Assembly: GCA_947184155.2 (NCBI GenBank)
Contig: CAMXCT020003646.1
Coordinates: forward strand, 437,028 to 501,027
Source: Cladocopium goreaui
Taxonomy: Eukaryota; Sar; Dinophyceae; Suessiales; Symbiodiniaceae
Length of the DNA stretch: 64,000 nucleotides
Direction: 5' to 3'
Shown piece after piece: positions 42,721 to 48,913 of this stretch. Positions within the stretch are counted from its first letter, which is position 1, and every line of letters begins with the position of its first letter. A program made the position numbers and the translations under genes. A model generated the notes under the pieces. The model was not told where the DNA came from, searched no databases, and worked only from the letters and a program-made list of their open reading frames with translations.

Positions 42721-42862
42721 TTATGCTTTGTGAGTTCATCATGCTGCGGTGTGTACCCAATGACCAACACTCATGGCCAATCTTGACCATGCGAGCTGCA
42801 GACTCATTCTTTTCTCCAATGGGGTTTCGGACGTTGCGTCTGCCAACTTCGGCGCGCTTTCA
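42721..42862 (-). repeat. Split direct repeat B2 (outer 3' end)
   Basis: 142 bp, matching 43588-43729. It begins ttatgctttg and ends gcgcgctttca on the plus strand. Confidence 0.9.
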
Positions 42863-43294
42863 GGCTCAGGGTACGGCCTAAAGCGATTGAAAAAGAGACT
42901 GAACGTTGGACCTGTTACATGTCCAGGTGTGGCAGTCGGCCATAGAGCTGAACATGTAGCTGAAGAAGACGAGCCGCCTGAAGAAGTTTGATGGAGGACA
43001 GCCAGTCCAAATGAAAACGGACTTGGCGAACCTCAGCTCTCATTTGGGTGAGCAGTGGTTGAACATGTGGCACGGCTTCGTCTTCGAACAGGTCCATCAG
43101 GTCGATGATACTCTCTTCGATCACATTGAGTTGTTGCACGTAGTGCTGGATGATGATGAATCGAACGAAGAAGGATTGAAGCGACCGTTGTGCAGGCATC
43201 TCCATTTCTGAGAGCGGAGTGATCACAAAATGTGAAAATTTTGGATGTAAGAATCCATTTTGAGAAGTTACAGGGTGGGAGAGGAAAAACTGGG
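42863..43294 (-). other. Spacer between A2 and B2
   Basis: 432 bp found only here. A minus-strand frame running out of A2 stays open to 42915 (about 95 codons in the spacer, rich in Leu/Gln). It has no R..HxxR..Y pattern, so it is not a tyrosine recombinase by eye. Confidence 0.5.
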
Positions 43295-43587
43295 GCGAAA
43301 AATTTTGAATGAGATGAACTTCAAACTGATGAAGGTTGACAATGAAGTTGTTCCTGATGACATACATGTTGAAAATGTCATGCATACATGTCAACCTCAT
43401 GAAGTTCATGTGGTGGCACTTGCCACTGTCACACTTGTGACTGGAACCGAAAAACCACATTGCCGAACGAATGAATTGACAAGCTCACAAAACCAAAAGG
43501 ACACACCGCATCACTCAAATGGAAGTTTCGTTTCAAGATGAGCTCAGTCTCATAAAAATCTATCATGACTTCTTCATGAGAGCATTC
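43295..43587 (-). repeat. Split direct repeat A2 (internal)
   Basis: 293 bp, no difference seen from 48621-48913. It directly abuts B1. Confidence 0.9.
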
Positions 43588-43729
43588 TTATGCTTTGTGA
43601 GTTCATCATGCTGCGGTGTGTACCCAATGACCAACACTCATGGCCAATCTTGACCATGCGAGCTGCAGACTCATTCTTTTCTCCAATGGGGTTTCGGACG
43701 TTGCGTCTGCCAACTTCGGCGCGCTTTCA
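43588..43729 (-). repeat. Split direct repeat B1 (internal)
   Basis: 142 bp copy of B2. The Pol stop codon (TGA, 43729-43727) overlaps its first bases. Confidence 0.9.
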
Positions 43730-46700: not shown

Positions 46701-46777
46701 GTGTCAGGGATATCTTTAGCCCTCTGAGATTGCTGCAAAACTGGATCGGGCAAAACTGGGCCGCTCACTGGAGTTTG
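43727..46777 (-). CDS. Pol: DNA methyltransferase-like, reverse transcriptase, RNase H
   Basis: An open frame of about 1,013 codons counted from GTG 46768; the frame continues from the Gag stop, so no separate ATG start is evident. Residues 45-190 form a SAM-dependent, C5-cytosine-type methyltransferase-like domain: EVFAGSGKLTAALRSLG (47-63), APPCGTSS (111-118, with the PC of motif IV) and ENPGRSF (181-187, in place of ENV). After a linker comes the reverse transcriptase: DLADAYKQIP (621-630), PFGSVASVTAFLR (661-673) and YFDDFF (693-698, YxDD). RNase H: YVDAS (854), ELEML (905), TDSES (931) and NPSDVLSR (978). All catalytic acidic residues expected by pattern are present and the frame is intact, so the copy is young. 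No protease, integrase or tyrosine recombinase is visible. Confidence 0.85.
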   Translation of the reverse strand, partial: QTPVSGPVLPDPVLQQSQRAKDIPDTRSSAGSPHQDRHQDRSLGQYFCIEVFAGSGKLTAALRSLGLRDSFGVDLKLPDHLRSPIIKYDLLKPDHVKLVQDLIASEFCIYVHFAPPCGTSSRARLIQRKGRWNPPIVRTERHPDGIPGLTGSLKARVQAANELYQVTCFLVEFCLQHKKYFSVENPGRSFMWATKPFVQLLNKFPLYEVLFHHCRYGSSRRKLTKFLHNIPTFQQLELMCDNQHLHEPWGQDPAGHWRTSEETTYPWELCRAIAAKLATQLEQDGINCTPPVFALQEASLNTMRAATDLQPRRGLPPMVPEFKAILSHPTAQPLPPGARKLSTHPGGSSASVNNKMDSENKVTIGLHFSPEEFVQKALEVGHPTRLHSFFPDEMEEVVRHCLNQTPARLSQDRTEEIKRWIHLKQSLASEETSYKELMSDRRRDILGSKNLTLFDRLLKDAGHGDVDLVKQLAEGFDLTGSLPESNVFSRKVRPAAMSCEDLRRIADMSREGMLQMVKSSGDTDLDVQLYSATMKEVSKGFLIGPISPEDLPSGSTLTRRFGVFQKNKTRPIDDYKASFVNSSVSQTETATVHTVDHVASMIACILRQTETRSLKPDLVAKTWDLADAYKQIPLSDQAFSQDAYLVVFCPATNKAEVFQQKVLPFGSVASVTAFLRVAHGIWKLGNKLLKLMWTSYFDDFFSITNAAIAKHTDLVIAAMFDLLGWKLSVDKLVDYNTICKVLGVEFDFRMSGAGLTTVNNTADRVRELCEQLDSILELGKLNKGDGERLRGRLQFASGQLFGRSARNNLRVLSKHISSNRLQLCNDTVTALDSLRHELRSNLPRTIRGPMSDHIHIYVDASFDLENYSGVGGVAFSSDGTILGYFSEEISKTFILAAMSADQHTMIQELEMLALLIAVSVWCPGHIGKRIVAFTDSESVRGSFLKTWSGNDPSSKLLRQIFLLEETHSCHVWLERVPSQSNPSDVLSRSQVAHWFGHERIRVDTTKLWEQSATCMG

Positions 46778-47998
46778 TCACTGGTGATTCTGGAGGCTAT
46801 GTGGTTGCTCACAGTTTGGCTCTGCACATAAATGCAAACCGCGAGCACACTTGCCTCCTGGTTTTGCGTCCTGGCACCCCTGCGGGAGATTGTATGCCCA
46901 ACAAAGGCGCTCATTCGACTTGGTGGTCAGGCTCTTGCCTATGAGTCCGCGTGGAATGTTAGGGCCACGACCCCTTTTGGATTTGCCCCCTTTGCCTTTG
47001 CCTTTGCCTTTCGATGGGGCTGCTGGATTCCCTTTTGGTGGAGTGCGTGACCTTGTTCTCTTGGGAGTTGCAGCTGCTTTGGGTTGAGCTGGCTTGTCAC
47101 TGCTGTTCTTCAGCGGAAGCGGCAGTAGATGAAACGTCACTGATGGATGTGCGAGCACTTTGGCAATCTCTGTTTCCAACGGCAGAGTGCCTTGCTGATC
47201 TCTTTTAAGCGTGCTCAATTTCTCTGCCATGTGGAGCCAGGCTGCACGATCTGCTCGCAAAATTTGGGCCAACGAGACCGATGAGTAACCTGGTGGTGGT
47301 GCTACATGGAGGTGGTCGAAGAGCTCCGCATGATAAGAATTCATGATATGATAGTTGCAACCCTGAACCAAATCGAAGGCTAAAGCTCTTCGTCTCATCG
47401 CATTCGCCGTTTCCAATTCAGTGGATGTTGAGCAGCTCAAGTCCTGTGCCTTGTCTCGCACTACAAGAGAGCTTTGATCAATTGAGATCTCCTTGGTGGT
47501 CTTCTTGTGTGACAACTCGGACCTCCTGGTAGCGAATTTGTCTGGCGACAAATACACGAGTGAATCCTTTTCAAGCATCCCCAAAACAAGATCGTAATTT
47601 TGAAACGCACACTCTTCCTCCCCTTTGAGCCTGAGGCCCTCAAGCCTGGTCTTCTGTTCCTTGACCCTGTTGTCCCGCTCAGCGGGGGCCAATTTGGCTT
47701 TTGTTTGGTCTTCTGTTTTGTGGACTTTATTTTGCAATTCTGCCGACAAAAGAGTTTGCGCCTCAAAGATAAGTCTTTTCATGGATGCATAGGTGCCAGG
47801 ATTGGCAACGACTAATCCGTTAAAGAGACCATCAATTTGACTATTGCTTGGGGCTTCTCCAGGTGGGCATGCTGCAAATGCTAGCCTGGCCAACGAATCA
47901 ACACGATTGGTGATGAGCGCCTCGACTTCCTCCGATGTCAGGCTGACTTCAAGCCCCCTGGATCTCAGAGCCTCCTTCGACTCCAAAAGAGTACTCAT
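46778..47998 (-). CDS. Gag-like protein with CCCH zinc knuckle
   Basis: 406 codons from ATG 47998, the first ATG of the frame, which stays open a little further upstream. The middle is helical and charged. A Lys/Gly/Pro-rich basic tract (residues about 325-360) precedes a Cys/His cluster (CWAYNLPQGC, then C-x8-C and CARGLH) at the C-terminus. This is the layout of nucleic-acid-binding capsid proteins of dinoflagellate retroelements. The ORF ends in TGA followed by CAA, and the next codons continue in the same frame into Pol, so readthrough would give a Gag-Pol fusion. Confidence 0.75.
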   Translation of the reverse strand: MSTLLESKEALRSRGLEVSLTSEEVEALITNRVDSLARLAFAACPPGEAPSNSQIDGLFNGLVVANPGTYASMKRLIFEAQTLLSAELQNKVHKTEDQTKAKLAPAERDNRVKEQKTRLEGLRLKGEEECAFQNYDLVLGMLEKDSLVYLSPDKFATRRSELSHKKTTKEISIDQSSLVVRDKAQDLSCSTSTELETANAMRRRALAFDLVQGCNYHIMNSYHAELFDHLHVAPPPGYSSVSLAQILRADRAAWLHMAEKLSTLKRDQQGTLPLETEIAKVLAHPSVTFHLLPLPLKNSSDKPAQPKAAATPKRTRSRTPPKGNPAAPSKGKGKGKGGKSKRGRGPNIPRGLIGKSLTTKSNERLCWAYNLPQGCQDAKPGGKCARGLHLCAEPNCEQPHSLQNHQ

Positions 47999-48620
47999 GC
48001 CGATGAAACGCAGGAGAAATGAGTGCAAAAGTAGAATTGTATTGCAAACGATATGTCCTGTTTAAGACTTGGATATGCACCTGTTATTGTTTTGTGTATG
48101 TTAATGCAAAACCTGTCAATAGATTGGATTCTTGGCCCGAGTAACTTCGACCCACTTTCACCGTCCAAATTTGAAAGTTTTTCACATGCATGGTAAATCT
48201 CACATGTCGCACTTGCGAAGTGACAACTCTCATTCACCGAAATGGTGTATGACCAGAAAAAGGCACTTGCCTTTATAATCTGTCGTTCTGACGACCATGT
48301 ATGGTTGCATGATCATTCATTTCATGTTTATTACACTGCTGGCACGTGCCAGTTCTGATGTGACTTTCTCAACACATCGACGGAGCAGCCTTTTTCTCTC
48401 TCTCAGTTCGCCACTTCTTCAATCCTGCTGCCATCTGACCTACCGTTCTAATTGGTTTGGATGCTGCGCACCGCTTACATTTCCGAAATTCCAAAAATGG
48501 AGATTCATCTACCTGCTCAAAATCAGAAGTAATTCGAACCCCGCAACTGAAAACTTCCGAACCTCCGACAGCGGACACATGAACTACCTGCGTACGGATG
48601 TTCCTGTACATGACCACATA

Positions 48621-48913
48621 GCGAAAAATTTTGAATGAGATGAACTTCAAACTGATGAAGGTTGACAATGAAGTTGTTCCTGATGACATACATGTTGAAA
48701 ATGTCATGCATACATGTCAACCTCATGAAGTTCATGTGGTGGCACTTGCCACTGTCACACTTGTGACTGGAACCGAAAAACCACATTGCCGAACGAATGA
48801 ATTGACAAGCTCACAAAACCAAAAGGACACACCGCATCACTCAAATGGAAGTTTCGTTTCAAGATGAGCTCAGTCTCATAAAAATCTATCATGACTTCTT
48901 CATGAGAGCATTC
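48621..48913 (-). repeat. Split direct repeat A1 (outer 5' end)
   Basis: 293 bp, no difference seen from A2. Its outer end (48913) meets a T-run in flanking DNA. Confidence 0.9.

Follow-up and report, generated by a model that had tools for sequence, protein, structure and literature searches.

A split-direct-repeat retrotransposon of Cladocopium goreaui without the recombinase-like gene of its relatives

A 64,000-nt stretch of the genome of the dinoflagellate Cladocopium goreaui (GenBank assembly GCA_947184155.2, contig CAMXCT020003646.1), hereafter the window, holds a retrotransposon with two pairs of direct repeats in the split arrangement of tyrosine recombinase (YR) retroelements, yet it encodes no such recombinase. 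What kind of element is this, and how could a copy with complete ends and no recombinase have come to lie there? The window covers positions 437028-501027 of contig C3646 in an assembly of 1.17 Gb, and other copies are named here by contig. Our answer, to which we assign a probability of about 0.8, is that the window copy inserted recently, has lost its YR, was perhaps mobilised in trans, and belongs to a PAT/SymbioDIRS-like family that has a gene between the repeats A2 and B2; jointly with this, the family would have the gene order A1 - (ORF195, a 195-aa open reading frame (ORF)) - YR - gag - C5-methyltransferase/reverse transcriptase (RT)/RNase H - B1A2 - 95-aa gene - B2.

Repeat layout and ends of the window element

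The element is coded entirely on the minus strand; A1 is therefore the right-hand and B2 the left-hand copy in window coordinates. It occupies C3646:479748-485942 and measures 6195 nt in coding orientation (Table 1). The direct repeats of the A pair (295 nt) and of the B pair (142 nt) are each 100% identical, and two bases (43588-43589) belong to both B1 and A2. These two bases recur as the last two of B2 and the first two of A1. Paired, full-length, identical repeats with a common junction are not a product of chance. A short inverted repeat, AGCAT-AAGA-ATGCT, is also visible at the junction, and was judged too probable as a chance occurrence to carry weight.

Table 1. Features of the window element. 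Element positions are in coding orientation.
Feature	Window position	Strand	Element position	Remarks
A1, outer repeat, element 5' end	48621..48915	-	1-295	295 bp; identical to A2; nine further elements have homologous A pairs
Deletion junction	48619..48621	-		A1 natural end 48621, one extra base 48620, homology to YR codon ~620 from 48619
YR-like ORF remnant	48324..48617	-		codons 621-718 of the C6121 736-aa ORF; tblastn 93.9% over 98 aa
gag-like ORF	46778..47998	-	888-2138	406 aa from first ATG (window position); Cys/His-rich C-terminus; 238 relatives
pol ORF	43727..46768	-	2148-5189	1013 aa; PF00078 E=8.4e-8; 128 relatives
C5-cytosine-methyltransferase-fold domain (predicted)	45833..46648	-		pol residues 41-312
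RT + RNase H (predicted)	43808..45448	-		pol residues ~441-987; fold match
B1, repeat	43588..43729	-	5187-5328	142 bp; first three bases = pol stop codon
B1/A2 junction core CATAAGAAT	43584..43592	-		at the B1/A2 junction in 10/10 elements
A2, repeat	43295..43589	-	5327-5621	295 bp; 100% identity to A1
A2-B2 spacer	42863..43294	-	5622-6053	432 bp; 376-432 bp across ten elements
Spacer ORF	42915..43205	-		96 aa; within A2-B2 spacer
B2, outer repeat, element 3' end	42721..42862	-	6054-6195	142 bp; identical to B1

The A1-ORFs-B1A2-spacer-B2 layout had been proposed in an earlier note made from the sequence alone, and it holds both here and in nine more elements. The lengths given there for B (142 bp) and for the spacer (432 bp) were exact; A measures 295 rather than 293 bp, the outer end lies at 48915 rather than 48913, and B1 and A2, described as fused without a gap, are indeed adjacent but overlap rather than merely touch. 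Of the observations that the note named as telling against it, two were not made: both repeats stop at their limits without extending beyond them, and the flanks of the window copy carry no target duplication beyond the common AA/TT dinucleotide. Its inference of recent activity is upheld in the form of a recent insertion, since the repeats are identical (0 differences in 437 positions; 95% upper bound on divergence 0.7%). The empty site that it suggested looking for was not available in the assembly, where the joined flanks match nothing except the window's own two flanks.

By itself, the A pair resembles long terminal repeats (LTRs) around gag-pol, and one might read the locus as an LTR retrotransposon with 295-bp LTRs (43295-48915) next to an unrelated 142-bp local duplication. 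We give this reading practically no credence: the end of B2 and the start of A1 carry the same two bases as the B1/A2 overlap, the combined A and B layout is found in nine further elements, the A ends are AAGAAT..TTTTTCGC and not TG..CA, and Pfam found neither a DDE integrase nor a protease in the window pol and gag. With TG..CA ends, a target duplication and a DDE integrase all absent, the LTR class was rejected, in agreement with the earlier note.

The other genomic copies that the note had called for do exist. Searched with the A repeat, the assembly yielded ten elements in which A is paired, the window element among them, all of which were read, and four places with a single match (C2101, C5577, C600 and C5893); these A matches are a lower bound. 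The layout recurs in all nine other elements, with the exception that in C1557 the B1/B2 match spans 40 bp only (97.5%). The starts of A1 and A2 lie 5.3 kb apart in the window and 17 kb apart in an element that contains a nested insertion; in the eight remaining elements the distance is 8.9-11 kb. At C600 the single A match is followed by a spacer-gene match (196546-197178), probably the 3' part of another element. Within the window, further copies of A, B, the spacer or the 5' region gave no match below E 0.18, pol relatives outside the element gave one weak match (E 0.001, inside a repeat array), and tRNA and Rfam scans gave none.

The missing recombinase-like segment

The closest copy, in C6121, is 92.4% identical to the window element from element position 297 onward, and has 4.15 kb extra between A1 and that position, which hold most of a 736-aa YR-like ORF. 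The window copy, short by ~4.1 kb in comparison, retains a remnant that is the sole match of this ORF in the window at E<=0.01; it lacks codons 1-620 and thus every catalytic motif. YR-like sequence, by contrast, lies between A1 and gag in all nine other copies, although it is broken in some (three pieces in C2134, a stop and a gap in C1557, two pieces in C885, four stops in C6073), and the distance from the end of A1 to gag is 4256-6368 bp in these copies versus 623 bp in the window. Because it lacks the YR, which as an encoded enzyme is a feature of the DIRS order, we class the window copy as a deletion derivative and not as an autonomous member. The earlier note had credited the element with what a tyrosine-recombinase retroelement needs, and this does not stand, as only codons 621-718 of the YR-like ORF are left; its claim of intact ORFs holds for no frames other than gag, pol and the spacer ORF.

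C6121 also has, between A1 and the YR-like ORF, the 195-aa ORF of the family gene order (L010:1112-1696, minus strand). It has matches of 30-39% identity in seven other elements, is found neither in C590 nor in the window, and has no convincing Pfam family (best E 0.17).

The 736-aa ORF probably encodes a tyrosine recombinase, a view that draws on motifs and a weak profile match and is helped by the class of the element. Stop-free YR-like frames occur at other genome loci, and we aligned 17 of the 64 genome matches (the C6121 ORF and 16 picked for stop-free frames; the genome search scored 61 of 2635 candidates). All 17 sequences share, without variation and at a YR-like spacing, the residues R, K, HxxK, LGH and Y. 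A pattern of box II, box III and the tyrosine that allows R or K fits every one of them, and it also fits XerC, XerD and lambda Int. It occurred nowhere in a background of 281,051 residues, of which 123,014 came from the six-frame translation of the window and 158,037 from other proteins, and it occurred in 3 of 20,000 shuffles.

Several points weigh against this assignment. The pattern was composed after the sequences had been seen, and box II is HxxK, with Lys in place of Arg, in 17/17 sequences. The ORF has no Pfam or PHROGs match, and in NCBIfam only an unrelated chance match (E 0.2); PF00589 matches only two of the 17 relatives (best E 0.11), and none of 150 listed PF00589 places in the genome coincides with the 64 YR-like places when the lists are compared by reading. 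In hhalign comparisons, full profiles gave P 0.16, and the YR-like domain gave P 0.01 against seven references, P 0.016 against four PF00589-positive pieces of the same genome (58 columns) and P 0.14 against three prokaryotic references; one of 100 column-shuffled controls scored 23.73, compared with 23.74 for the seven references. Apart from this family, contigs C1 and C2380 match PF00589 with Xer-like strength (E 3.7e-46 and 4.9e-41), far above the rest, and are possibly bacterial contigs in the assembly.

The deletion junction was defined by comparison with C6121 and eight other copies. The left edge of the loss lies within 1 nt of the A1 end. That the YR segment might be an intron, or lie behind a trans-splice acceptor, was considered and rejected (AG precedes the junction in 2/9 copies, C6121 and C2134), and the full A end plus one base that the window retains likewise spoke against a splice product. 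Alternatively, the segment may have been lost from the chromosome by an ordinary deletion after a full-length insertion, leaving a copy that is now dead. The segment is absent from just one of the ten copies read, and C6121 carries a 167-bp perfect tandem duplication across its A1 end (39686-40020), so that the region may be prone to rearrangement. Still, we consider such an event rather unlikely, as a breakpoint within 1 nt of the A1 end is improbable for a random deletion, no long microhomology is visible at the breakpoints, and repeats that are still 100% identical leave little time. Loss during reverse transcription is tentatively favored instead, because the loss starts so close to the natural end of A1.

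The A2-B2 gene, gag and pol

The earlier note had called the 432-bp interval between A2 and B2 unusual next to the contiguous B1A2B2 of the common description. It is no oddity of this copy: all ten elements have such an interval, at 376-432 bp (the value for C1557 uses an extrapolated B2), and it contains a conserved small gene. The window spacer ORF is open to a common stop in the nine copies compared. Of the 36 pairs, 22 have a measurable dS, and in these its ratio of non-synonymous to synonymous substitutions (dN/dS) is 0.015-0.185, the value for the window and C6121 being 0.035; C1557, where the gene matches in two pieces, was excluded, and the other 14 pairs have saturated dS and no ratio. 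The gene has 41 matches in the genome, 38 of them free of internal stops. These comparisons clearly point to a conserved gene of ~95 aa under selection. Some properties of the ORF would also suit a frame that is open by chance within a spacer of regulatory function, for an equally long ATG-stop frame arose in 120 of 2000 spacer shuffles (6%), codon usage alone does not decide, with 10 of 123 unrelated frames reaching its score, and in a set of 5.8 billion proteins, searched by shared 5-residue words only, relatives fell into a single cluster (P0121, 98%). Nine open copies with low dN/dS and 38 stop-free genome matches make it very unlikely, and the chance-frame reading was dropped after the copies had been compared.

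Upstream of at least 24 of the 41 spacer-gene matches, on the same strand, lies a YR-like match; the number is a lower bound given the partial scoring of YR candidates, and the 17 without a YR match include the window copy. The distance is 4952-5371 bp in 23 cases and 13,082 bp, around a nested insertion, in one. This association, which extends across deep divergence, bears on whether the compact window copy, with its remaining ORFs open, could be the ancestral form, to which other copies added YR and ORF195. Such an origin is scarcely tenable, as it would also leave unexplained the ~98 codons from the 3' part of the YR-like ORF that are kept between A1 and gag.

The C590 copy has a second, distantly related element nested in its pol (145000-167000), with YR-like and gag-like sequences of 26-28% and 30% identity, respectively. 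It is flanked by a 310-bp direct duplication of pol (99.7% identical), which is not expected from YR integration.

Comparison of the window with C6121 indicates that gag, pol and the spacer gene alike are under purifying selection: the Gag proteins agree in 401 of 406 aa, with dN/dS 0.022 for gag and 0.085 for pol. The pol frame runs uninterrupted to its end in the window, C6121, C6073, C1553, C125 and C445, and broken in the four other copies. AF2 models of Pol predict RT/RNase H and, ahead of the RT, a C5-methyltransferase fold; whole-Pol Foldseek and VIA lists contained RT only, and the methyltransferase domain was therefore modeled separately. PF00145 gave no match at E<=1 in the 33 Pol proteins scanned. 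Pol alignments of 33, 77, 25 and 51 rows consisted of the window and 32, 76, 24 and 50 relatives, drawn from 120 listed of 128. Sequence searches of the PDB with Pol, the YR ORF and the YR alignment gave nothing useful, and no relatives were found in viral-contig and genome-contig collections.

Elsewhere in the window, six imperfect tandem units of ~66 bp (49198-49676) lie just outside the A1 end, adjoined by a GGGGT-rich stretch (~49125-49180). Long microsatellite-like arrays occupy 5600-7500, 11300-12300, 24800-26100 and 53500-54500, and 60345-63998 contains long plus-strand open frames, one of 501 codons and one of 735 codons that runs to the window end.

Proposed mobilization and comparison with known systems

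Circle closure in split-repeat YR retrotransposons is known mainly from models. In the cycle that we envisage, Pol would reverse transcribe the element RNA, the B1A2 block would bridge the two outer ends to give a circle with a single B-A junction, and the YR would cross over at the CATAAGAAT core, integrating the circle without a target duplication. Since the window copy cannot make a YR, it would have been integrated in trans by the enzyme of other copies, or have lost the YR segment in that same cycle. For the loss itself we offer a tentative guess, somewhat short of even odds: a 5'-shortened RNA that began at YR codon ~620 may have been linked to a whole A that was rebuilt from A2, in much the way that LTR elements regain their U3. 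It weighs against the broader proposal that only one copy lacks the YR, so that any repeated trans-mobilization of the YR-less form would be conjectural.

A wider reading, offered as one speculation that we ourselves regard as doubtful, would combine three parts. The elements may form a widespread dinoflagellate YR superfamily, with an HxxK recombinase nearly invisible to standard profiles and a fifth gene of ~95 aa between A2 and B2, past the block that bridges the ends; the ~95-aa protein may serve the bridging or circle-forming step, or the recombinase; and A may be rebuilt whole from A2 in each cycle, shortened RNAs giving rise to YR-less copies with complete ends that move in trans. The copy cut at the A boundary may be a natural record of the site where A is rebuilt, and the conserved gene provides a concrete candidate protein for circle closure. 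Because PF00589 almost misses the YR-like family, Pfam-based counts of such elements in dinoflagellates would be too low. The putative C5-methyltransferase domain in Pol, unmatched by PF00145, would add to what already connects retroelements with DNA methylation.

The family would work like PAT and SymbioDIRS elements; for Ngaro and PAT, circle closure has been described mainly by models, with annealing between the repeats proposed (PMC6681497). With PAT/Ngaro-type members of the DIRS order the family shares split direct repeats, RT and RNase H, a common core and, in the window copy, the lack of a target duplication. The SymbioDIRS-Dnmt3 elements of Symbiodinium (de Mendoza et al., 2018; PMC5890265) have A-coding-B-A-B repeats and come in two structures in which the domains, and likewise the YR and Pol ORFs, are ordered differently. 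As is predicted for the family here, they combine a cytosine methyltransferase domain and RT in one Pol ORF; their YR is in a separate ORF, and here YR-like sequence precedes gag in nine of ten copies. Their methyltransferases, however, are defined by PF00145 and cluster with Dnmt3, the passages cited from that paper mention no A2-B2 spacer or gene, and the elements encode the YR that the window copy lacks. KnitGypsy-Dnmt3, from the same paper, is likewise stated to have DIRS-structured repeats and a DNMT in Pol, but is a charophyte element with a Gypsy-type domain set, whereas the relatives of the window copy carry a YR-like ORF.

PAT elements (nematode-form Pat1, Kangaroo; PMC4157794) also unite RT and methyltransferase, but as described there their YR lies beyond the internal repeats, whereas in this family the YR-like ORF precedes gag, the A2-B2 interval holds the 95-aa gene, and the methyltransferase precedes RT and has a predicted C5 fold. 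Ngaro elements of Cafeteria (PMC8547959) share split direct repeats, RT-RNase H and a separate YR; they are given as A1-[ORFs]-B1A2B2, with no spacer stated, their YR is a PF00589 protein with HxxR, and Ngaro has no methyltransferase domain (PMC4157794). SIRE, the non-autonomous relative of VIPER (PMC6681497), is similarly a truncated companion of a YR retroelement, but corresponds to the A2-B2 region, whereas gag, pol and the spacer gene all persist in the window copy, from which only a 5' segment with the YR is absent. Titles and abstract beginnings listed by searches of the open-licence literature gave no sign of an A2-B2 gene in dinoflagellate elements or of a comparable YR-less copy. Relative to the descriptions as cited, then, four features appear to be new: the A2-B2 gene, a recombinase-like ORF with HxxK that precedes gag, a divergent domain of predicted C5-methyltransferase fold ahead of RT, and a copy that lacks the YR and whose repeats are complete and identical.

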